The notes under the pieces: model-generated
Seen by the model: the letters and a program-made list of their open reading frames with translations, nothing else
Told to the model about the DNA's origin: nothing
Databases searched by the model: none
Shown here: positions 13,679 to 29,122 of the stretch, in pieces
Layout: each line of letters starts with the position of its first letter
Position numbering within the stretch: position 1 is the first letter of the stretch
Translations under genes and position numbers: made by a program
Origin: Armatimonadota bacterium
GTDB lineage: Bacteria > Armatimonadota > Fimbriimonadia > Fimbriimonadales > Fimbriimonadaceae
Assembly: GCA_029781035.1 (NCBI GenBank)
Contig: JAKOXK010000073.1
Coordinates: forward strand, 1 to 58,053
Length of the DNA stretch: 58,053 nucleotides
Direction: 5' to 3'

Positions 13679-13993
13679 AGCTTCCATCTTGGTGACAAGA
13701 TGCTCTGTCTTGGTGTCACGATGATCTGTCGTGACACCACAATGCTCCGTCGTGACACCACGATGCTCTGTCGGGACACCACGATGCTCTGTCGTGACAC
13801 CACAATGCTCCGTCGTGACACCACGATGCTCCGTCGCGACACCACAATGCTCTGTCGTGACACCACAATGCTCCGTCGTGACACAACGATGCTTTGTCGT
13901 GACACCACGATGCTCCATCGTGACACCACTATGCTCCGTCGTGACACCACTATGCTCCGTCGTGACACCACTATGCTCTCTGGTGACACCACG
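13679..13993. repeat. 21-bp tandem repeat array (15 units)
   Basis: Fourteen clear units of exactly 21 bases from 13700 to 13993 plus one degenerate unit at 13679-13699. The consensus reads ATGCTCCGTCGTGACACCAC plus G, A or T. Each unit has CACGA-N7-TCGTG symmetry across the unit border. No spacer is present, so it is not a CRISPR. The period of 21 keeps several frames open. Confidence 0.93.
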
Positions 13994-14069
13994 AAGCCTC
14001 ATCTTCTCAGCTCTCGGAGCCACTGTGGCCTGGCCCGGTGTTCTTCGAACCGGGGTGAAAGCGGCGTCC
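13973..14069 (+). repeat. Direct repeat, copy A
   Basis: The last array unit and the following roughly 75 bases (CATCTTCTCAG, GAGCCACTGTGG, GTGTTCTT, GAACCGG) recur with about 85% identity at 14638-14732. The two copies bracket the small gene at 14225-14629. Confidence 0.8.
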
Positions 14070-15420: not shown

Positions 15421-17040
15421 CTACGGCTTCCGCGAATAGAACACCAGGTACGCCTCTGTCACGTGCGTCGGTGCCCAGGTCTTGCCTCGGCCCTCGTTCA
15501 CGTACTTGTCCAACTGGTACTCGACGTGCAGCGACGGCGACCCCTTCACCGGCACGTCGACCTCCCACGGCCGCACAATGTCGCCCGGGCCCCAGCCCGC
15601 ACGGTCGTACTTCCAGGTGCCGCCCTGGGGACGGTCCGGGTTGAGGTAGTTGTCCGTCTTCCAGAGCACGTTCCGGAACTTGTGCCCGTTCACCACCAAC
15701 GTCCGGCCGAGGGGCATGAACTCGCCCGCGTTGTTTGTGTTCGGCTCCATGCCGTGGCCGGTGACCACCGTCCGCACCGCCGCGAAGTCGTCGCCCTTCT
15801 CCACCGGCACGTCGCGCGGGACGTAGAACTTCTCCACCGGCTTGTCGGGGTTGCCGATCTCAGGCGCGCCGGACCACAGCCGCACCAGGCGCCGGGCGTA
15901 GCGGTCGGCGGGGCCAGGGTAGAAGTCGAACGTGACCGTCACCACCCAGCCCTCGCCCTGGGTGCCGCACGACTGCACCACTTTCTTAGTGCCGGTGAGC
16001 AGGGGGCGGAAGTCGGAGACGTCCATCTGCCACGCGTAGCCCCGGCCATAGGGGGTGATGTAGCGCACGACCTCCCACGACTGGCCCTTGTCGTCCACCA
16101 CCGAGACGTTGGCGATGCGGTCCCAGGGGTCGAAGCGGGTGGCGGGCTTGTCCAGCCGAACCGTGCAGACGATGCGGCCGAAGGCGCTGGTGTCGTCGGG
16201 GAACGCGACCGTCGCCGCGTTCGTGCCGTGGGCGGCGTCGTTGAGGACGTGGTCGATGGCGACGACCGTCTTCGGCGGCGCGGGCTTGGCGATGGGGTCG
16301 GCGGTGGCAATGTGGAGGTCGCTGATGAAGACGTCGCCGGCGGTGTCGCCGTTGCGCGCGCCGAAGGCGGGGCGACCGACGAAGGCGGTCATCGAGGGGA
16401 TGAAATAGCTGGCGAAGACGGTCTCTTTGTCCAGCTTCAGCGTGACCTCCGCGCCGCCGGTCACGAAGTCGACGTGAAGATTGACCTGGTGGTCTTTCTC
16501 GTCGCGGAACTCGGTCTGCGTGAGCTTCTTGACGATCTCGACGTTGTCCCAGTGGAGCGAGACCTCGTGCTCCGGCCGGTTCATGATGTTGCCGGAGCCG
16601 CGGAAGGGGTCGCGGTTCGGCGGGTCGCTGGCGTCGAAGCCGACCCCGAGGGCGCGCTCGACGCTCGGCTCGTCCCAGGCCTTGACGTCGGGGACGTCGT
16701 TGCCGGTGCCGTACTTCTCGGTGTCCAGCCAGACCAGCCCCGCGCCCTCGGTGCCGGTGTTCATCATGAGCGTGAAGTCGATGTCGAGGGCCTTCTGGTA
16801 CTTATCGGTCGGGGGCTTGGCGGCGACGGCGCCAGTGGAATTCTCCCAGGACTCGAGCAGGTAGAGCCTCTTGTTCTCGATCTTGGGCTTGGGCATGCGC
16901 TTGGCGGCGTCGCCGGTCGCGGTCGCGGCCCAGCCGTCGAGGTCCTTCTTGTCGTTGAAGGGCCAGGTCTGCTTGGTCTGGGCGCTGAGGAGAGCTGGGG
17001 CGAGGAAGAGGAAGGCGAAGGCGGCGCGCATCGTGTTCAT
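15421..17040 (-). CDS. Secreted PNGase F-like peptide-N-glycosidase
   Basis: A 539-residue secreted protein (signal peptide to LLSAQ). Residues about 25-235 form a concanavalin-like sandwich (TKQTWPFNDKKDLDGW...). The C-terminal half matches the two jelly-roll domains of peptide-N4-(N-acetyl-beta-glucosaminyl)asparagine amidase F: FGRIVCTVRLDKPATRFDPWD, RYITPYGRGYAWQMDVSDF, VTGHGMEPNTNNAGEFMPL, and GGTWKYDRAGWGPGD near the end. PNGase F removes N-linked glycans from glycoproteins. The family's GWCPG is GWGPG here, so one conserved Cys is lost. The extra N-terminal domain makes it longer than the roughly 350-residue PNGase F. Activity is inferred, not certain. Confidence 0.75.
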   Translation of the reverse strand: MNTMRAAFAFLFLAPALLSAQTKQTWPFNDKKDLDGWAATATGDAAKRMPKPKIENKRLYLLESWENSTGAVAAKPPTDKYQKALDIDFTLMMNTGTEGAGLVWLDTEKYGTGNDVPDVKAWDEPSVERALGVGFDASDPPNRDPFRGSGNIMNRPEHEVSLHWDNVEIVKKLTQTEFRDEKDHQVNLHVDFVTGGAEVTLKLDKETVFASYFIPSMTAFVGRPAFGARNGDTAGDVFISDLHIATADPIAKPAPPKTVVAIDHVLNDAAHGTNAATVAFPDDTSAFGRIVCTVRLDKPATRFDPWDRIANVSVVDDKGQSWEVVRYITPYGRGYAWQMDVSDFRPLLTGTKKVVQSCGTQGEGWVVTVTFDFYPGPADRYARRLVRLWSGAPEIGNPDKPVEKFYVPRDVPVEKGDDFAAVRTVVTGHGMEPNTNNAGEFMPLGRTLVVNGHKFRNVLWKTDNYLNPDRPQGGTWKYDRAGWGPGDIVRPWEVDVPVKGSPSLHVEYQLDKYVNEGRGKTWAPTHVTEAYLVFYSRKP

Positions 17041-17136: not shown

Positions 17137-18111
17137 ATGTCCAGCTTCCTGAAGGATCGAAGACGGGTGTTGCTACTCGGAGCTGGTTTTTCGGCTACCT
17201 GGTCGGGGCTACTGTCCAAGGACGTTGGAGCAATGATGGCGTCGCGGCTCTTCCAACCAAGATTCGAGCACCTTAGGAGGATGCTTCTAGAAGCGAGTAA
17301 CTACGAGGAAGCCTGGGGCGATGCAACGAAGGAGTCTTCGGAATCCGAACGCGACCTTCGGGATGCCCTTGTCGCCACGCTCGAGCTCCAAGAGACGCTT
17401 CTGAGCGCGCACGGCCACTCGGACGGGCTCAACGCCCCAGACGCGATTGATTTCATACGTAACTGCGTTACATTCGGCCACCCGGAGTCCGGCTTCATTG
17501 CAACCACGAACTACGACTGTCATCTTGAGCGGCTCGAATCACAACTGATCCAGAGAATCAGGATTCGGCACTTAGGCGGCCCGGGCGGACGAATCAATGT
17601 TGAGGGTGACAACTGGAGAGCTTCGTACACCAGCGACGCCAGTACCACTGGTCCGACGACTCTCCCACGCCCGCAGACAAATGAGATTGGTTATCTGAAG
17701 CTCCACGGGAGTCTGAATTGGGATCACCATGGCGAGCGCGTGTTGGTCTCCGGAACACGAAAGGACGGACAGATAGCTAGGTTTCCGGTGTTGAAAGCAA
17801 TCAACGATGCCCTGGACTCAGAGGTCTCAAAAGGGAATGTCGACGTAGTTTCGATCGGCTTTTCGTTTACAGACTCCCACCTGTTAGACCGTCTTGAGAA
17901 AGTCTGTGACGACGCCTGGCGGATCTTCGTCATCAATCCCGAACACCCCTCAGGACTCGTGTCGCGACTGTCCGCCACCCACCCCAAGCTAGGCAGAGCA
18001 GTTCGTTACTACCTACCCGTCACCTTGCCTCAGCTCTTCCCGGCTCGAGGCGGCCAGGCGCAAACACTTCGTCGGAAAGAATTCGAGCGCGTCCTGTTCA
18101 ACCAGTGGTAG
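17137..18111 (+). CDS. SIR2-like NAD-binding protein, defence candidate
   Basis: A 324-residue soluble protein with the landmarks of a SIR2 fold: GAGFS (residues 15-19) for the Rossmann loop, TTNYD (123-127) in place of the sirtuin TQNID, LHGS with His190 in the catalytic position, and GFSFTD (241-246) in the later NAD loop. There is no zinc module of deacetylase sirtuins, which favours NAD hydrolysis as in SIR2-type anti-phage effectors. No sensor or partner gene is adjacent, so it would act alone or has lost a partner. The function in defence is inferred from the family only. Confidence 0.8.
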   Translation: MSSFLKDRRRVLLLGAGFSATWSGLLSKDVGAMMASRLFQPRFEHLRRMLLEASNYEEAWGDATKESSESERDLRDALVATLELQETLLSAHGHSDGLNAPDAIDFIRNCVTFGHPESGFIATTNYDCHLERLESQLIQRIRIRHLGGPGGRINVEGDNWRASYTSDASTTGPTTLPRPQTNEIGYLKLHGSLNWDHHGERVLVSGTRKDGQIARFPVLKAINDALDSEVSKGNVDVVSIGFSFTDSHLLDRLEKVCDDAWRIFVINPEHPSGLVSRLSATHPKLGRAVRYYLPVTLPQLFPARGGQAQTLRRKEFERVLFNQW

Positions 18112-20580: not shown

Positions 20581-20690
20581 GGTAAGGGTGGTAAGCGTTG
20601 TCAGGGTGGTAAGGGTTGCAAGTGTTGCCTAGCGTTCCATCCTTTCCATCCTGACCACCCTGACGACCCTTACAACCCTTACCATCTTCA
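20581..20690. repeat. Inverted array of 9-bp units (long imperfect palindrome)
   Basis: Five 9-base units of the GGTAAGGGT type read rightward from 20581, then the complementary units (GACCACCCT, GACGACCCT, TACAACCCT, TACCATCTT) run to 20688. The two arms are about 50 bases each and could fold into one long hairpin. The right arm ends on the araD stop codon (20688-20690), so on the minus strand the hairpin would lie just after araD, where it may act in termination. Confidence 0.8.
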
Positions 20691-21512
20691 CCCCTGCCCA
20701 TACCGGTTCCGGTACCGGTCACTCCACTTGGCGACTTCCTCGGGCGCGAGGGAGACGGGCTCGCCAAGGCGCTCGGCGAGGGCCACGGTGCGGGCGACGT
20801 CCTCGACCATGACCGCCGCCTTAAGTGCCTCCTTCACCGACGGGCCCCAGGCGAAGACGCCGTGGTTGCCGAGGAGGATGGCGGGGGCTTGGGTCTTGTG
20901 CGCCAGGATCGCCTCGCCGATGTGGTCGCCCTCGTTGTCGACGTACGGCGCGCAGGGGACCTCGCCACCGAACTCGTCCGCGATGGCGGTGAGCACGCAG
21001 GGGATCGGGCGGTGGCAGGCGGCGAAGGCCGTGGCGAAATTGCTGTGGGTGTGGACCACTGCGCCGACCTCGGGCATGTGGCGGTAGATGAAGAGGTGGT
21101 GGGGCAAGTCGACACTGGGCTTGAGGCGGGTGTCGAGGACTTCGCCGTCGCTGAGCCGGACCGGCACCATGTCCATCGGGGTCATGGCGTCGTAGTCGTA
21201 TCCGCTGGGTTTTATGGTGAGGATGCCGGTGTCTCGGTCGAGGCCGCTAACGTTGCCGGAATGCATCACGACGAGGCCGCATTTGGGCAGAAGCTGGTTG
21301 GCATCGCAGACGGCGTTGCGCAGGGCTGGGTTGTCGTTGTCGATGAGCTTTCTTCGCGATTGGCGATCAGGAGTTGCTCCCAGTGCTTCTTCGGCTCGGT
21401 CAATACAATCGGTGCACACCGCGCCGTGGCTTCCCACCACGAGCATGGCGACATCATCCTTCAGCCTTCCGCAGAGGACGCAACGGTCACGGCGCTGGTC
21501 AGGCTTGGACAT
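20688..21512 (-). CDS. araD: L-ribulose-5-phosphate 4-epimerase with N-terminal ClpX-type zinc finger
   Basis: A 274-residue class II aldolase/AraD enzyme, last gene of the ara operon; it converts L-ribulose 5-phosphate to D-xylulose 5-phosphate. From about residue 54 it follows the family: HSGNVSGLDRDTGILTIKPSG, zinc ligands His154 and His156 (HTHS) and His217 (NHGVFAWG), Asp135 in KPSVDLPHH, and the C-terminal YGQG. Residues 9-46 are extra: CVLC (Cys11, Cys14), a LVVGSHGAVCTDC segment (Cys33, Cys36) and IDRAEEALG, which match the four-cysteine zinc domain of ClpX. The start is fixed by context: ATG 21512 comes two bases after the araB stop, with GAGG in the end of araB. The role of the finger is unknown. 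Confidence 0.88.
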   Translation of the reverse strand: MSKPDQRRDRCVLCGRLKDDVAMLVVGSHGAVCTDCIDRAEEALGATPDRQSRRKLIDNDNPALRNAVCDANQLLPKCGLVVMHSGNVSGLDRDTGILTIKPSGYDYDAMTPMDMVPVRLSDGEVLDTRLKPSVDLPHHLFIYRHMPEVGAVVHTHSNFATAFAACHRPIPCVLTAIADEFGGEVPCAPYVDNEGDHIGEAILAHKTQAPAILLGNHGVFAWGPSVKEALKAAVMVEDVARTVALAERLGEPVSLAPEEVAKWSDRYRNRYGQG

Positions 21513-21514
21513 CC

Positions 21515-23158
21515 CTATTGCCTCGCCTCGTCGCGGATCTTGATCAACTCCTTCATGATGCCTCCCATTGGCCGCTGACTCACGTTGCCGAACGCGTCGT
21601 GCAGGTCCAAGTAGAGGGCGTAGAGGCGGTCATAGGTGCCTACGGCGTCGGGATCGGGGCGGTAAACGGTGTCCTTCACTCCCGTCATCGCGGCGATGGC
21701 GGTCAGGAAGTCAGGGTGGGCGCCACCGGCGACGGAGCCGGCGATAGCGGCGCCGAGAGCGCAGGTCTGGGCCGAGCGACTGGTCTTGATCGGTCGGTTA
21801 AGGATGTCGGCGTAGACCTGCATGGTGAGCGGGCTCTTCTCGGCGATCCCTCCGCAGACGACGACCTCCTCGACCTTGACCCCGTGCTCTTCGATGCGCT
21901 CGATGATTTTGCGCGAACCAAAGGCGGTCGCTTCGATGAGCGCTCGGTAGATCTCAGTTTGGCTCGTCTGGAGCGTCTGGCCGACGATCAGGCCGGTCAG
22001 GAGTGGGTCGACGAGGACGGTGCGGTTGCCGTTGTTCCAGTCTAGGGCGAGAAGACCGCTTTGACCAGGGCGATGCTTGCTGGCTTCACGTCCGAGCTCG
22101 TCATGACTGGTGTGACCGAGTTTGCCAACGCACCAGTTGAAGAGGTCGCCGACCGCGGACTGGCCCGCCTCGATCCCCATCATGCCGGGGATGACCGAGC
22201 CAGGCACGATGCCGCAGACGCCGGGGATGTCGGGCGTACCCGGCCCGCCGACCATGATGTCGCACGTGCTGGTGCCCATGATCTTGACCAGCGTGCCGGG
22301 CTTGACGCCGCTGCCGACAGCCCCAAGATGAGCGTCCATCGCGCCGACACTGATCGGAGTGCCGGCCTTGAGGCGGGCCTTGGCTGCGATCTCAGCGTCG
22401 AGACCGCCGATGCTCTGGCCGGCTTCGCCGGTCTTGGTGTAGAGGTGTCCGCGGAGCGCACCCAGGCGAGGGTCGAGTCCCTTTAGGAACGACGCGCTCG
22501 GCAGCCCGCCCCAGGACTCGTGGAACATGGCTTTGTGGCCGGCGGCGCAGATGCCGCGCGGGATGCTGGCGGCGTTGGGAAGGCCCGCGAGCCAGGCGGG
22601 AATACAGTCCTGGCACTCGACCCAACTGTGGGCAGCGTCAAAGACCTCCGGCGCGACGCGCGCGCAGTGGAGGATCTTCGACCAGAACCACTCGCTGCTG
22701 TAGGTGCCGCCGCACTTGGCGAGGTAGGGCTCGCCACGTTGTCTTGCGAGCTCAGTGATCTCTCCGGCTTCGGAATACGCGGTGTGGTCTTTCCAAAGCC
22801 AGGTCAGGGCGTGGGGGTTTTCTTGGAAGCGCTCTTGAAAGCCGAGAGGCACTCCGCGCTCGTCCACTGGCATCGGGCTGGAACCGGTAGTGTCGACTCC
22901 GATGCCGACAATGTCGCTTGGATCGATCGTTGCCTCTGCGAGGGCTCCTTCGACACACTCGAAGAAGCCACTGACATGGTCGCGTGGGTGCTGGCGGGCG
23001 AGATTGGGGTCTTTGGCGTCAAGGATGACGCCGTGATCGCCGCTCTTGAATTCCGAGACGGACGTGCCGAGCTCTTCGCCCGTCGCGCAGTCCACGACCA
23101 AGGCCCGGACGCTGTTGGTGCCGTAGTCGATGCCCAGGGCGAGTTTGCGGTCAGACAT
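21515..23158 (-). CDS. araB: Ribulokinase
   Basis: A 547-residue FGGY-family sugar kinase phosphorylating L-ribulose with ATP. The N-terminal ATP-phosphate motif is GIDYGTNSVRALVVD (residues 9-23); TWLWKDHTA, GAMDAHLGAVGSG and IMGTSTCDIMVGG are ribulokinase signatures, and the C-terminal ATPase loop VVVCGGIAEKSPLTMQVYADI is intact. Length agrees with E. coli AraB (566). Its ATG overlaps the araA stop by eight bases and its stop is two bases before araD, so the three are translationally coupled. Confidence 0.95.
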   Translation of the reverse strand: MSDRKLALGIDYGTNSVRALVVDCATGEELGTSVSEFKSGDHGVILDAKDPNLARQHPRDHVSGFFECVEGALAEATIDPSDIVGIGVDTTGSSPMPVDERGVPLGFQERFQENPHALTWLWKDHTAYSEAGEITELARQRGEPYLAKCGGTYSSEWFWSKILHCARVAPEVFDAAHSWVECQDCIPAWLAGLPNAASIPRGICAAGHKAMFHESWGGLPSASFLKGLDPRLGALRGHLYTKTGEAGQSIGGLDAEIAAKARLKAGTPISVGAMDAHLGAVGSGVKPGTLVKIMGTSTCDIMVGGPGTPDIPGVCGIVPGSVIPGMMGIEAGQSAVGDLFNWCVGKLGHTSHDELGREASKHRPGQSGLLALDWNNGNRTVLVDPLLTGLIVGQTLQTSQTEIYRALIEATAFGSRKIIERIEEHGVKVEEVVVCGGIAEKSPLTMQVYADILNRPIKTSRSAQTCALGAAIAGSVAGGAHPDFLTAIAAMTGVKDTVYRPDPDAVGTYDRLYALYLDLHDAFGNVSQRPMGGIMKELIKIRDEARQ

Positions 23159-24560
23159 GGCGGTAGACGCTCCAGCCCAGGTACTTCTCCATCGCTTCGT
23201 AGACCGCGTCGGCAGTCTGGCTCAAGTTGAAAGCGACGTGGTGTTCGAAGCCGTTCTCGCACACGAAGTGTAGCAAGTCTTGCAGTCGTGGCACCTTCAC
23301 AACGCCAAAGCCGCCGAAGGTGTTCAGCACGTCGTTGGTCACCTCGCCCTCGCCGACATAGGCCATCACACAGCCATTCAGGTCATCGGTGCTGACGCGG
23401 CAAAACGTAAAGGCTCCGGACTTCATCCTGCCCACAATCGTGCCATAGGTGTTCTCCTTGCCGACCGTGCCAGCGATGATCTCTTGGTAGTCCATCTTTT
23501 GCTCAGCAAAGACCGACTTGGGGAGGTTCGAGCAGTGAAATACTACGGCTTTGTCTGGGTCTGTGCCGAAATTATTGTTCCAATCGAGCAGCGCGCTGGG
23601 CTGGCCGCTGGCGCACTGGAGAGCGTACATGCCGACCGTGCCCGCTACGTCGGTCTCGCAGGCGCTCGCCATCAGCGAGTTGGACATCATCGACATCAAC
23701 GTGCAGGGCACGACGCCATAGAACTCTTCCAGGCTTGTCCAGCACTGCACGGCGGTGGCGTCAAGCTCGCGATCTTTTGCCCAACGGTCGATAGCGACGC
23801 CGAGTCGGGCCATCTTGTCTAGGCTCTCGTCGGGCACGCCCTTGGTGTCAGTGTAGGCCTTGATGCGCTCTGTCTTGGACTTCACTTCCTTGTCGCTGGC
23901 CGACATATTGTTCGCCCAGCCGAGGACTTCAGAAAGGTCGAGGGTTTCGACGGTGATGCCGGACTGCTCAAGGAGCTTCTCGCTGTAGCGGACGGTGTTG
24001 AAGGCGCCGGGTCGGGCACCGATCGCGCCGATCCTCGCCTTGCGCAGACCTTTGACGACTTGGCAGATAGAGCGGAAGCGGCGCAAGTCTGCCTTGAACG
24101 CATCGCTTGTTGGGTCGACTGTGTGCAGGTCTGTCAAAGAAAACTTGATCCCATACTGTCGCAGGTTGTTGCACGCGGACATCTTGCCGCAGAAGCTATC
24201 GCGGCGGTCAGCGATCGTCATGCGCTTGGCGTCATCGTTGAAAGCGTGCACCAACACCGGCACATCCAACCCAGAGAAGCGGATGGAGTTGGCGATGGCG
24301 CGCTCGTCGCCGAAGTTCGGCAGGGTGACGAGGATTCCGTCGATCTTGTCGCGGTGCTTGTTGAACAGGTCACCGCACATGCGGGCTTCGGCCAGCGACT
24401 CGACCGAGCCAGCCGGGCTCGCCTTTTCGTCCAGCACCACGACATCGAAGCCTTCATCGGCCAGCACCTGTAAGACTGTCTTGCGCCCAGCCTCACAAAG
24501 GTGCGTCGGGAAGAAGCCTCGGTTGCCGATGATCACGCCCAAAGTTGTCTTCTGTGACAT
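23151..24560 (-). CDS. araA: L-arabinose isomerase, L-fucose isomerase-like type
   Basis: A 469-residue isomerase of the L-fucose/L-arabinose isomerase superfamily, first gene of the ara operon; placement before a ribulokinase and AraD makes L-arabinose to L-ribulose the likely reaction. Visible landmarks: ILVTLPNFGDERAIAN, VLVHAFNDD, GAIGARPGAFNTVRYSE, TAVQCWTSLEEFYGVVPC, ETDVAGTVGMYAL and LLDWNNNFG. It looks closer to the FucI-like branch than to classical AraA, so another ketose substrate remains possible. ATG 24560 has GGAGGCGGA directly upstream; the frame is open for a further 43 codons without support. Confidence 0.85.
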   Translation of the reverse strand: MSQKTTLGVIIGNRGFFPTHLCEAGRKTVLQVLADEGFDVVVLDEKASPAGSVESLAEARMCGDLFNKHRDKIDGILVTLPNFGDERAIANSIRFSGLDVPVLVHAFNDDAKRMTIADRRDSFCGKMSACNNLRQYGIKFSLTDLHTVDPTSDAFKADLRRFRSICQVVKGLRKARIGAIGARPGAFNTVRYSEKLLEQSGITVETLDLSEVLGWANNMSASDKEVKSKTERIKAYTDTKGVPDESLDKMARLGVAIDRWAKDRELDATAVQCWTSLEEFYGVVPCTLMSMMSNSLMASACETDVAGTVGMYALQCASGQPSALLDWNNNFGTDPDKAVVFHCSNLPKSVFAEQKMDYQEIIAGTVGKENTYGTIVGRMKSGAFTFCRVSTDDLNGCVMAYVGEGEVTNDVLNTFGGFGVVKVPRLQDLLHFVCENGFEHHVAFNLSQTADAVYEAMEKYLGWSVYRHV

Positions 24561-24611
24561 TCCGCCTCCATGGTCTCGGGAGCGCCCCCCACTTAGCTCC
24601 CTCATCGTCAG

Positions 24612-24618
24612 TATCATA
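24612..24618. promoter_or_regulatory. Overlapping divergent -10 elements of the ara operon and GH51 gene
   Basis: The heptamer TATCATA reads TATCAT on the plus strand and TATGAT on the minus strand. It is the only good -10 in the 79-base gap. It predicts starts near 24624 (plus, 16-base leader with GGAGGT) and 24606 (minus, about 46-base leader). Confidence 0.5.
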
Positions 24619-24639
24619 GCCGTAACCGGAGGTTCTTCA

Positions 24640-26955
24640 GTGTTCCTGTCCCTTGCCCTCGCCACCGCGTCCCTCGGGGTCGCCGCCAAGCTGACGATCC
24701 ACTACGACCAACCAACCGTCACGGTCAGCCCGACTCTGTACGGGGTTTTCTTTGAAGAGATCAACTACGCGGGAGATGGAGGTCTCTATGCGGAACTGGT
24801 TCGGAACGGAAGGTTCGAGGATTCGGACAAGCCGGACCACTGGAGCCCCGTCGGTGGTGCGGAGTTGACGTTGGAGACCACGAAAGGTCCCAACGCGGGC
24901 CATAGGCTCCGCATCACGGGGCGCCCTGGCGCGGGAGCTTTCAACGACGGCTTCTTCGGCATGGCTGTGCGACAAGGGGAGAGCTATCGGCTGGTGCTGA
25001 CGCCTGCGGGCAAAGTCGGCACCACCTATGAAGCATTCCTCGAATCGCACGATGGGCAGAGGATCAGTAACATAGCGTCTGGACCTGCCGACTCCCAGCC
25101 CGAGGAGTCAGTCTTGAAAGCATCGGTCACCGACAACCATGCACGTCTGGTTATCCGCCAAAGCGACAGCGGTTCACTCGATGTCTCCAGCGTCTCGCTC
25201 ATGCCGACTAAAACATGGAAGGGTCGCCCAAACGGCATGCGCCCGGACCTTGCCGAAATGCTCGATGGTCTCCACCCTGCCTTTATGCGCTTCCCTGGCG
25301 GTTGCTGGGTCGAAGGCGACGTGTGTGCGACGGCATACCGTTGGAAGAACACAATCGGGCCGGTCGACCAGAGGGCGACGGTCGTAAATCTCTGGGGCTA
25401 CAAATCGGGCAACGGCCTGGGCTTCCACGAGTACCTGCAGATCTGTGAAGACCTCGGCGCACAGCCGCTTTTCGTCATCAACTGCGGTATGTCGCACCAC
25501 GAAACCGTGCCAATGGGCAAGATGGACGAGTACGTCCAGGACGCGCTCGACGCGATCGAGTATGCGAACGGCGACGTCTCGACGAAGTGGGGAGCGATCC
25601 GGGCCAAGAACGGTCATCCGAAGCCGTTTGGCCTTAAGTACATGGAGATCGGCAACGAGAACGGAGGCCCCGCTTATGCCGAGCGCTATCCGCTCTTCGT
25701 GAAGGCGATCAGGGCCAAGTATCCGGAGATGCATCTGATCGCCGACGTTTGGGGTGGCATCCCGAGCACGGCGCCGGTCGAGATCGTGGACGAGCACTAC
25801 TACAGTTCGCCTGAGTTCTTCATGCAGAACGCTGACCGTTATGACAGCTACGACCGCAAGGGGCCGAAAGTGTACGTGGGGGAATACGCCGTCACCCAGG
25901 GTTGCGGCAACGGCAACCTGGCGGGCGCGCTCGGCGAGGCGGCGTTCATGACGGGCATGGAGCGCAACAGCGACGTGGTGGTCATGGCTTCGTACGCTCC
26001 TTTGTATGCGAACGTCAACGGCAAGGGCTGGAACCCGGACCTCATCTACTTTGATTCGAGCCGTGTTTGCGGAACGCCGAGCTACTACGTGCAGCAGATG
26101 TTCAGCCGCAATCGCGCTGATGAAGTGGTCAAGTCCGAAATGACCGGTTTGAACGCGAGACACGGAAGCTTCCCGGGCGGGGGCGTTGGAGTCGGCACCT
26201 GGCGCACGCAGGCCGACTTCAAGGACATCCAACTCACAGAGGGGAACGAGGTGGTCTTTCAGAGCAAGGACGGCCAGGGCCTGACCAGCGAAAGCGGCGA
26301 GTGGAAGTCGGTTGACGGAGCATACCGGCAAAGCAGCAACGTTGAGGGCGCAAGGGCATGGTTCGGAAGCGGAAACCTTTCCAACTATACGCTTCGTCTC
26401 AAAGCGCGCAAAGTTTCCGGTGATGAAGGGTTCTTGATCACGGTGGGTCGGCGTGATTCGAAGAACTATTTGTGGTGGAACATCGGCGGTTGGGGCAACA
26501 CGCTGGGCGCAATTGAGAACGCGGTTGACGGGGCTAAGTCGTTGATCGGCAAGCAGGTCGCTTCGCAGGTGGAGACCGGGCGTTGGTACGACGTCATGGT
26601 GCAGTATCAAGCCGATCACATCACGTGCACACTGGACGGCAAGGTGGTGTACAGCGAAGACTTCCCTACGCAAAAACCGCTCTACTGGGTGGCGGGGCGG
26701 TCTTCCGATGGAAGCGGGATCGTGAAAGTGGTCAATGTCAGCGACCAAGACATGGCCGTGGACGTTTCTTGTGAGAGCGCGTCGTTCAAACATGTCTCAA
26801 TTGAGACGCTGACTTCAGCGAACCTGACGGACGAGAACACATTGGAGGATCCGCTGAAAGTGGCGCCGCGCGCTTCTCAGGAGCACGTGACGAACGGAAC
26901 TCTAAGTCACGTGTTCCCCGCACACTCCGTGACAGTCCTGCGGCTGACTCGCTAG
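24640..26955 (+). CDS. Secreted alpha-L-arabinofuranosidase, GH51
   Basis: A 771-residue secreted enzyme releasing L-arabinofuranose from arabinoxylan or arabinan. Signal peptide VFLSLALATASLGVAAK. The GH51 landmarks are TLYGVFFEEINYAGDGGLYAE, FMRFPGGCWVEG, the acid/base Glu340 in MEIGNENGG, the nucleophile Glu415 in VYVGEYAVT, and the C-terminal beta-domain ending SVTVLRLTR. Between them, at residues about 100-185, lies a carbohydrate-binding-like domain, and about 530-670 is a concanavalin-type (LamG/DUF1080-like) insertion (VVFQSKDGQGLTSESGEWK...). The GTG at 24640 has GGAGGT six bases upstream. Divergent from araA, which will use its product. Confidence 0.93.
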   Translation: MFLSLALATASLGVAAKLTIHYDQPTVTVSPTLYGVFFEEINYAGDGGLYAELVRNGRFEDSDKPDHWSPVGGAELTLETTKGPNAGHRLRITGRPGAGAFNDGFFGMAVRQGESYRLVLTPAGKVGTTYEAFLESHDGQRISNIASGPADSQPEESVLKASVTDNHARLVIRQSDSGSLDVSSVSLMPTKTWKGRPNGMRPDLAEMLDGLHPAFMRFPGGCWVEGDVCATAYRWKNTIGPVDQRATVVNLWGYKSGNGLGFHEYLQICEDLGAQPLFVINCGMSHHETVPMGKMDEYVQDALDAIEYANGDVSTKWGAIRAKNGHPKPFGLKYMEIGNENGGPAYAERYPLFVKAIRAKYPEMHLIADVWGGIPSTAPVEIVDEHYYSSPEFFMQNADRYDSYDRKGPKVYVGEYAVTQGCGNGNLAGALGEAAFMTGMERNSDVVVMASYAPLYANVNGKGWNPDLIYFDSSRVCGTPSYYVQQMFSRNRADEVVKSEMTGLNARHGSFPGGGVGVGTWRTQADFKDIQLTEGNEVVFQSKDGQGLTSESGEWKSVDGAYRQSSNVEGARAWFGSGNLSNYTLRLKARKVSGDEGFLITVGRRDSKNYLWWNIGGWGNTLGAIENAVDGAKSLIGKQVASQVETGRWYDVMVQYQADHITCTLDGKVVYSEDFPTQKPLYWVAGRSSDGSGIVKVVNVSDQDMAVDVSCESASFKHVSIETLTSANLTDENTLEDPLKVAPRASQEHVTNGTLSHVFPAHSVTVLRLTR

Positions 26956-27219: not shown

Positions 27220-29122
27220 ATGAGACGGACCGATGATTCACTGCGGACACGGCACGACCAATCCGTCGTGTCTCAGAACAGCCGGAAGATGAGATTGGCA
27301 TTGAGCCAGAAGGACTCCGTGCGACTTATAGTCCCTTTCGTGTCGTTGTCAGGGCTTCTTGCCCCAACATGGGCGACTTCGCCCTCGTCACCGGGCGATC
27401 GAGGTGCTCAGTCTCTTCAAGGGCGGGTCATCGCACTGGCCGGTATCGCTCTCTGTGCGGTCTATGTGGCGCAGATGAAAGGAGGCGCGGCTGGGGAAAG
27501 CCATCGTGATCTGGCATCCTGTCTCGATGAACTGCAACGCTCTTGCCTCACCGAGCTTCACGCCTCCACGAGGGCACTTTCCGAAGGTCGGCTCACCACA
27601 AAGGTGACGAAGAGCGGACGGAGTCGTTGGGTAACGATGCCGCGGCAGGAAAAACACAACGCAGTTCTAGCCGAAGTTCACGGGATCGTCGACACGTTTG
27701 GCGAGACGCAAAGGGAATTCAGGCATCTCGTCGAGCAGGTGGCTTATCAGGCTCAAAACACCTTCACTGCGAGTACGGCCCTTGCATCCTCGGGTACGGG
27801 GTGTCGAGCAGGCCGCGACCCGGATTCCTGAATTCGTCGATCAGCTTTCGACCGCTTCGAAAGAAACTGCGGACAAGGTCGGACAATTGGCAGTTGGCAG
27901 CGAGCAGCTTGCTGTCTGAGCGACCGAAGCAGCCGAAACGGTTGAGGCCCCTATGGCCCAAATCGACCTTGTCCCGTCGGCAAGCCAGCGATTGGGTGCT
28001 TCATCCCAGCAATCGCTAGAAGTTTCGGAAGAAGTGACCCAGTCGGTCCGCCGAGCGATCGCGAGCATGGCCTCAATTCTCGAGATGCTCCAGGTGACCG
28101 CCCATCACGTCTCGCAGTTCGAGGAAGAGCAACCTCAGATTGGCGCGATCGTGCAAACGATCAATGAAACCGCCGAACAGACCAACCTCTTGGCCCTCAA
28201 TACCGCGATCGAAGCAGCCCGTGCAGGCGATCAAGGAAGAGGGTTCGCTGTCGTCGCAGACGAGGTGCGAAAGCTGGCAGAACATTCCAGCGAAGCGACG
28301 ACTCACATCGCCGACCTCATTGAAGATGTGCGTGCGTATATGGCTCATTCGACTGCGTCGATGGCGGAAACGACCCACGAGTTGGCGGAAGGGTTCCGGC
28401 ACACAGACTCGGCGAAAGCCAGCTTTAAGGCGATCCTGGAAGAGTCACGCCAATCAAGGGAGGTTGTGAACGAGACTGAGACTGCAGTCAAAGCGATGCA
28501 CGCTAACGCTTCCAAAGTATCCGACATGGTGAGTCACGTCGCCGCCATGAGCAAACAGTCAGTCGCAGCCGCCGAAGAACTGAGCGCGACAAGCGAGCAG
28601 ACCGCCACGGCAACCACGGAAGTCACGGTAACCGTCGAAGGCCAGGTAACAGACATCCACATCGTAACCGTGACCGCCACCTCTCTTGAGAACCTGGCTC
28701 AGGACTTGTGGAAGCTGGTGAACAGTTTCGACTACGAGTCGATCGATGACCTACCTGAGAAGGTCGAGGTCTTCATAGGTGCCCACCGAAAGTGGGTGGA
28801 ACGTGTCGAGGCCATGGTTGGTGGCGAACCGCTGATTCCTCTGAACGAACTGGTGTCACACAAAGACTGTAAGTTGGGTCAATGGTACAAAGAAGGCGGC
28901 CGCAAACTCGCTGGCAGCTGGCCCGAGTTCCCAGCGATCGATCCGCCTCACGCCCGTCTCCACGCGATCGCTCGTAAGGCGGTCGAGGCCATGCGCTCGG
29001 GTAATCAAGTTGCAGCTCAAGACTCACTGCGCCGAATGCGACAAGCGAGCGAGGAAGTGATCGGCGCCCTTGAGGCCTTGAGGTCAGGGGCCGTGTCACC
29101 CCAAGTGAGAGCCGCCGCTTAA
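27220..29122 (+). pseudogene. Methyl-accepting chemotaxis protein with CZB domain, disrupted
   Basis: A membrane chemoreceptor broken by two lesions. The N-terminal part has two hydrophobic segments (RLIVPFVSLSGLLAP and VIALAGIALCAVYVA). At GGGG 27798-27801 one extra G shifts the frame; without it the protein reads on as GVEQAATRIPEFVD. In that second frame a TGA at 27917-27919 interrupts [15 protein letters not shown]. The rest is intact: the signalling tip [20 protein letters not shown] and [10 protein letters not shown], and a C-terminal zinc-binding CZB domain ([14 protein letters not shown] ... PHARLHAIA). Two lesions argue against programmed frameshifting; sequencing error could explain one. 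A fragment from ATG 27953 could still be made. Confidence 0.8.

Follow-up and report, generated by a model that had tools for sequence, protein, structure and literature searches.

Why does an enzyme of sugar metabolism begin with a zinc finger of the type that heads ClpX, and what might the finger do there? The question is raised by a gene in a 58,053-nt stretch of contig JAKOXK010000073.1 from a member of the Fimbriimonadaceae (Armatimonadota), hereafter the window, for which a ClpX-type zinc finger fused to L-ribulose-5-phosphate 4-epimerase (AraD) was originally predicted. Judged from the sequences, this architecture is firmly established, with support from a sequence profile, a fold model and the nearest relatives of the protein. 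As far as a literature search shows, it is a previously undescribed domain fusion, confined to one genus and built from two well-known domains. Such a natural transfer of the domain to a metabolic enzyme provides a simple test of its role on its own, be it subunit linking, recruitment of ClpXP partners or nothing at all, and relatives in the same genus that have plain AraD permit a direct comparison.

The arabinose locus and the enzyme domain

The fused gene lies downstream of araB in an operon, with a divergent glycosidase gene nearby (Table 1). Pfam places Aldolase_II at residues 67-242 of the protein, and NCBIfam assigns it to the PRK06557 subfamily of L-ribulose-5-phosphate 4-epimerases (NF005123, 257.4 bits against a cut-off of 251); the fused homologue from a further species of this genus (G003, see below) reaches 233.8 bits, just below that cut-off. 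The nearest solved structure is that of E. coli AraD (1jdi), in alignment to which D135, H154, H156, H217, D179 and Y271 correspond to E. coli D76, H95, H97, H171, D120 and Y229, which we take to be the metal ligands and catalytic residues of that enzyme. By this alignment the AraD domain keeps the metal and catalytic residues of the epimerase and, in its ribulokinase and arabinofuranosidase context, is consistent with epimerase activity. Because araB, an isomerase of the fucose isomerase fold and a divergent arabinofuranosidase are its neighbors, an L-arabinose pathway at this locus is very likely. For the isomerase the only matches are Fucose_iso_C and a sub-threshold hit to sulfoquinovose isomerase, and it is not assigned to a curated L-arabinose isomerase (AraA) family.

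Table 1. Position of the fused gene, its parts and the adjacent genes in the window.
Feature	Position	Strand	Notes
Fused araD (ClpX-type zinc finger and L-ribulose-5-phosphate 4-epimerase)	20688..21512	minus	274 aa, ATG start
zf-C4_ClpX finger, residues 10-44, Cys 11/14/33/36	21381..21485	minus	PF06689; same place in genome scan
Linker, residues 45-63, predicted helix 48-58	21324..21380	minus	no ATG/GTG/TTG codon
Class II aldolase / AraD domain, residues 64-274	20691..21323	minus	Pfam, NCBIfam, residue alignment
araB, ribulokinase, directly upstream in operon	21515..23158	minus	NF003154, 647 bits against cut-off 428
Likely operon isomerase, Fucose_iso_C fold	23151..24560	minus	Pfam, NCBIfam
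Divergent alpha-L-arabinofuranosidase	24580..26955	plus	ASD1_dom and Alpha-L-AF_C; 5' boundary approximate

The protein thus resembles other PRK06557 (NF005123) epimerases in its full domain, its score above cut-off, its metal and catalytic residues and its araB neighbor, but differs from them in about 60 additional N-terminal residues that include the finger. Plain AraD relatives begin at the araB stop, whereas the fused protein begins there with its finger. A second, plain AraD that would make the fusion dispensable was looked for in the genome of the window species and rejected: apart from the fused protein, the only close AraD of this genome, the AraD search hits an aldolase at 28% (E 2e-4) and the finger of ClpX.

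The finger in the predicted product

Two bases, GG, separate the araB stop codon (TAG) from the ATG of araD. In the fused frame, ATG, GTG or TTG codons occur at residues 1, 23, 25, 26 and 32, and then at 82-83. None is present in codons 33-81, a stretch that reaches past the onset of the aldolase domain near residue 64, so plain AraD could not be made by ordinary initiation; starts at residues 23-32 would yield a broken finger. With ordinary initiation, every product extending into the enzyme domain would therefore include at least part of the finger. The proposal that the start is fixed by its place two bases after the araB stop, with the finger in the product, agrees with these codons, and no standard start was found over the stretch beyond residue 40 that could separate the two parts. 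A downstream ATG, GTG or TTG start was rejected on the same count. The extension had been put at about 50 residues; it is real, but its length is nearer 60, with the aldolase domain from about residue 64. We also rejected an artefact of assembly or gene calling, as the frame is uninterrupted by stops and the fusion recurs in G003, there on a contig of 965 kb.

A ClpX-type zinc finger

The four cysteines lie where they were first read, at 11, 14, 33 and 36 (CxxC-x18-CxxC), and match zf-C4_ClpX (PF06689) at residues 10-43 with 32.5 bits in the full protein; the profile search that had been proposed for the N-terminal residues gave 36.6 bits for residues 1-49 alone, the cut-off being 27 in both cases. 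With a profile of Fimbriimonadaceae ClpX fingers, the window finger scores 66 bits and that of G003 AraD 84.8 bits, against a best score of 17.4 bits among 5000 shuffles of the window residues. A chance CxxC pattern is rejected by the scores against the two profiles. Solved ClpX chains from other phyla reach only 14-18.5 bits. Pfam finds no AAA domain in the fused protein, which places it outside ClpX proper (NF003745 / TIGR00382), for which an AAA+ module is required.

The predicted structure, one of the checks suggested at the outset, points the same way. A full-length AlphaFold model of the monomer (mean pLDDT 92.7) comprises the finger, the linker helix and the aldolase domain. The finger fold is predicted at pLDDT of about 90-94. 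For the finger modeled alone, six of the seven best PDB matches in Foldseek are chains of the E. coli ClpX zinc-binding domain (ZBD), with 0.7-0.8 A over 35 residues, probability 1.00 and E-values of 0.02-0.15 against 2DS5, 2DS6, 2DS7 and 2DS8, and the first-ranked fold match is a ClpXP model; since ClpX rows were present in the alignments behind the finger models, this match is not fully independent evidence. The modeled finger is compatible with the treble-clef fold of the ClpX ZBD.

Probable origin from clpX

The finger of the window aligns from Met1 with ClpX of its own genus (MSKPDQRRDRCVLCG against MPKPDERRDRCCLCG), and the Met1-anchored alignment of AraD finger and lineage ClpX gives MSKPDQRRDRCVLCGRLKDDVAMLVVGSHGAVCTDCIDRAEEAL against MPKPDERRDRCCLCGKAKEQVPKLIVGLHGAVCSDCIDLCNDIL. 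The window finger shares 23 of 39 residues with the ClpX of its own species, and that of G003 shares 33 of 39 with lineage ClpX. Because the alignment with the N terminus of lineage ClpX starts at Met1, the simplest reading of the sequences is that the 5' end of clpX, start codon included, was copied and placed in front of araD where araB and araD meet. The true clpX of the window genome is intact, has its own finger and is located on a separate contig (C13). The finger is thus like the ClpX N-terminal domain (PF06689; PDB 2DS5-2DS8, 1OVX) in its CxxC-x18-CxxC spacing, its identical residues, its match from Met1 and its predicted fold, but is attached to an aldolase-fold enzyme rather than to an AAA+ module.

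ClpX-type fingers outside ClpX also occur in other Armatimonadota families (L094-L098), in open frames of about 280-360 aa that encode hydrophobic segments followed by a C-terminal finger. These resemble the fused AraD in using the finger away from ClpX, but there it is C-terminal after membrane-like segments and no aldolase is present. The anti-sigma factor CsfB likewise has a small treble-clef zinc domain that dimerises like the ClpX ZBD, but it stands alone, has about 20% identity to that domain, and its kinship with it is doubted by its authors (PMC5890618).

Distribution, and one capture or two

The genus was sampled by four genomes, those of the window species (G000), G001, G002 and G003. 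In G003 the fusion recurs: its protein is 61% identical overall to that of the window, has the four cysteines and scores 43.4 bits against PF06689; its araD abuts araB, with a GTG or ATG start that overlaps the araB stop. The AraD of G001 is plain and starts at a GTG that likewise overlaps the araB stop, and no AraD was found in G002. Matches to the AraD search at E <= 1e-20 are present in 45 of the 85 genomes of the family, but the finger is aligned only in the two fused proteins, and among the matches listed in a PF06689 scan a second finger within the genus occurs only in the same two genomes. No further fusion was found among 291 genomes of the phylum, covered outside the family mainly by the AraD search. 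The in-line stretches upstream of plain AraD in 22 relatives contain no CxxC-x18-CxxC, by which hidden fingers there are rejected, and the five plasmid matches listed all begin at query residue 46 or later. The count that had been called for is two genomes among the 85 of the family and the 291 of the phylum. The original statement that no AraD with this domain had been described agrees with a full-text literature search for an AraD with a ClpX-type zinc finger, which returned none, and with the phylum genomes, except that G003 supplies a second case. In one family member, the match to plain araD is split between two frames, with a stop in one of its two parts (G014:C8:363823-364548), which is either a frameshifted gene or an assembly error.

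Trees of the parts differ. A single clade of fused proteins is not rejected by the AraD-domain tree (p-AU 0.48) and is disfavored by the finger tree (p-AU 0.015), which has only 39 columns and a long window branch. In the ClpX tree G003 groups with G001 (93/91), not with the window species, and in the araB tree the two fused species are paired weakly (67/63). Possible histories are two captures, transfer between members of the genus, or an early fusion that G001 later lost or had replaced. That ClpX zinc domains were captured twice independently in front of AraD, and this because tethering to ClpXP or its partners is useful, we regard as very unlikely; if true, a metabolic enzyme would carry the docking domain of its own protease.

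Selection on the finger

Between the two AraD fingers pN/pS is 0.45, for each against its own ClpX it is 0.34 and 0.19, and between the two ClpX fingers it is 0.04; none of 2000 codon bootstraps reached 1, with synonymous sites saturated. Both AraD fingers are under purifying selection that is looser than on the finger of ClpX itself: the finger is kept, but less strictly, because its pN/pS is below 1 and above 0.04. The four zinc-ligand cysteines are invariant in both. Of the two non-ligand cysteines of ClpX, 12 and 40, the window species retains neither, and G003 lacks Cys12. In the C-terminal helix of the finger, L39 and I43 of ClpX are replaced by R and A in the window species (L39R, I43A) and are unchanged in G003. 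These replacements and its faster evolution set the window finger apart from the ClpX domain. The C-terminal helices form part of the dimer core of the ClpX ZBD (PMC5890618); L39 and I43 presumably fall within that core, and L39R with I43A may weaken ClpX-like pairing. Third-position GC of finger and enzyme is 0.62 and 0.90 in the window species and 0.84 and 0.74 in G003, a weak comparison at fewer than 50 codons.

These rates bear on whether the finger does anything. It could be a nearly neutral passenger: the 5' end of clpX would have been captured by chance, supplying the start codon that araD now needs, and the finger would only have to fold without disturbing the enzyme. Its restriction to a single genus, where two of the four genomes have it, and its much faster evolution than in ClpX (0.34 against 0.04) are in keeping with this, and the finger could not be shed by simple start migration, because there is no downstream start. 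Retention of the four cysteines and the core in both lineages at saturated synonymous divergence, with pN/pS well below 1, speaks against it, although selection for foldability alone could yield the same pattern. On balance we think a passenger rather unlikely; if it is one, the gene is a clean example of recent domain capture.

Possible roles of the finger

SspB is the classic ligand of the ClpX zinc domain. A homologue was not found in the genomes of 11 relatives, including the whole genus, in searches whose E. coli and Caulobacter controls were positive, and this absence weakens the best-known adaptor version of any role borrowed from ClpX. The ClpX ZBD is an independently folding domain that forms dimers and serves as a docking site for adaptors (PMC9035409; PMC7226468). 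By analogy, interaction or oligomerisation is the most likely function of the AraD finger, and we see about even chances that the captured domain binds zinc and acts as such a module outside catalysis. Because plain AraD is also present in the genus (G001), the finger is unnecessary for the AraD reaction. As in ClpX, it would be a protein-interaction module that takes no part in catalysis, pairing either with partners of the ClpX finger or with itself, in which case it would join AraD subunits or tetramers to one another; its presumed dimer face would have begun to diverge in the window species.

A more specific possibility is that the finger pairs with the ClpX zinc domain or an adaptor and tethers AraD to the protease for removal when arabinose is absent, or that it acts as a decoy for ClpX partners. 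The finger probably derives from lineage ClpX, to which that of G003 remains close, and the ClpX ZBD, when isolated, forms dimers and is able to compete for an adaptor (PMC7226468). However, the apparent lack of SspB and the altered dimer-helix positions of the window species argue against a tether, and we consider it unlikely. If true, it would represent a new coupling of sugar metabolism to proteolysis.

Alternatively, loss of zinc from the finger, through zinc starvation or oxidation, could alter the activity or stability of AraD. In keeping with this, AraD belongs to the metal enzymes, four thiolates are present in the finger, and a methyl-accepting chemotaxis protein that ends in a CZB zinc-binding domain is encoded nearby (27953-29122). 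This neighbor is probably a coincidence, however, and as no conserved regulatory site or zinc-regulated neighbor was identified at the locus, a metal or redox switch seems highly improbable. An interaction or oligomerisation module remains our preferred reading.

Other features of the window

Just after araD, at 20581-20683, the intergenic region contains an inverted repeat with 42-nt arms that are 83% complementary and made up of GGTAAGGGT-like units; the genome contains two other stretches that are partly similar. A tandem array at 13717-13994 comprises 13 copies of a 21-bp unit (88% matches) and is open in several frames. Also encoded are a 539-aa protein, unassigned except where it matches the C-terminal domain of peptide-N-glycosidase F (15421-17040), and a SIR2-like (SIR2_2) protein that is possibly defense-related (17137-18111).
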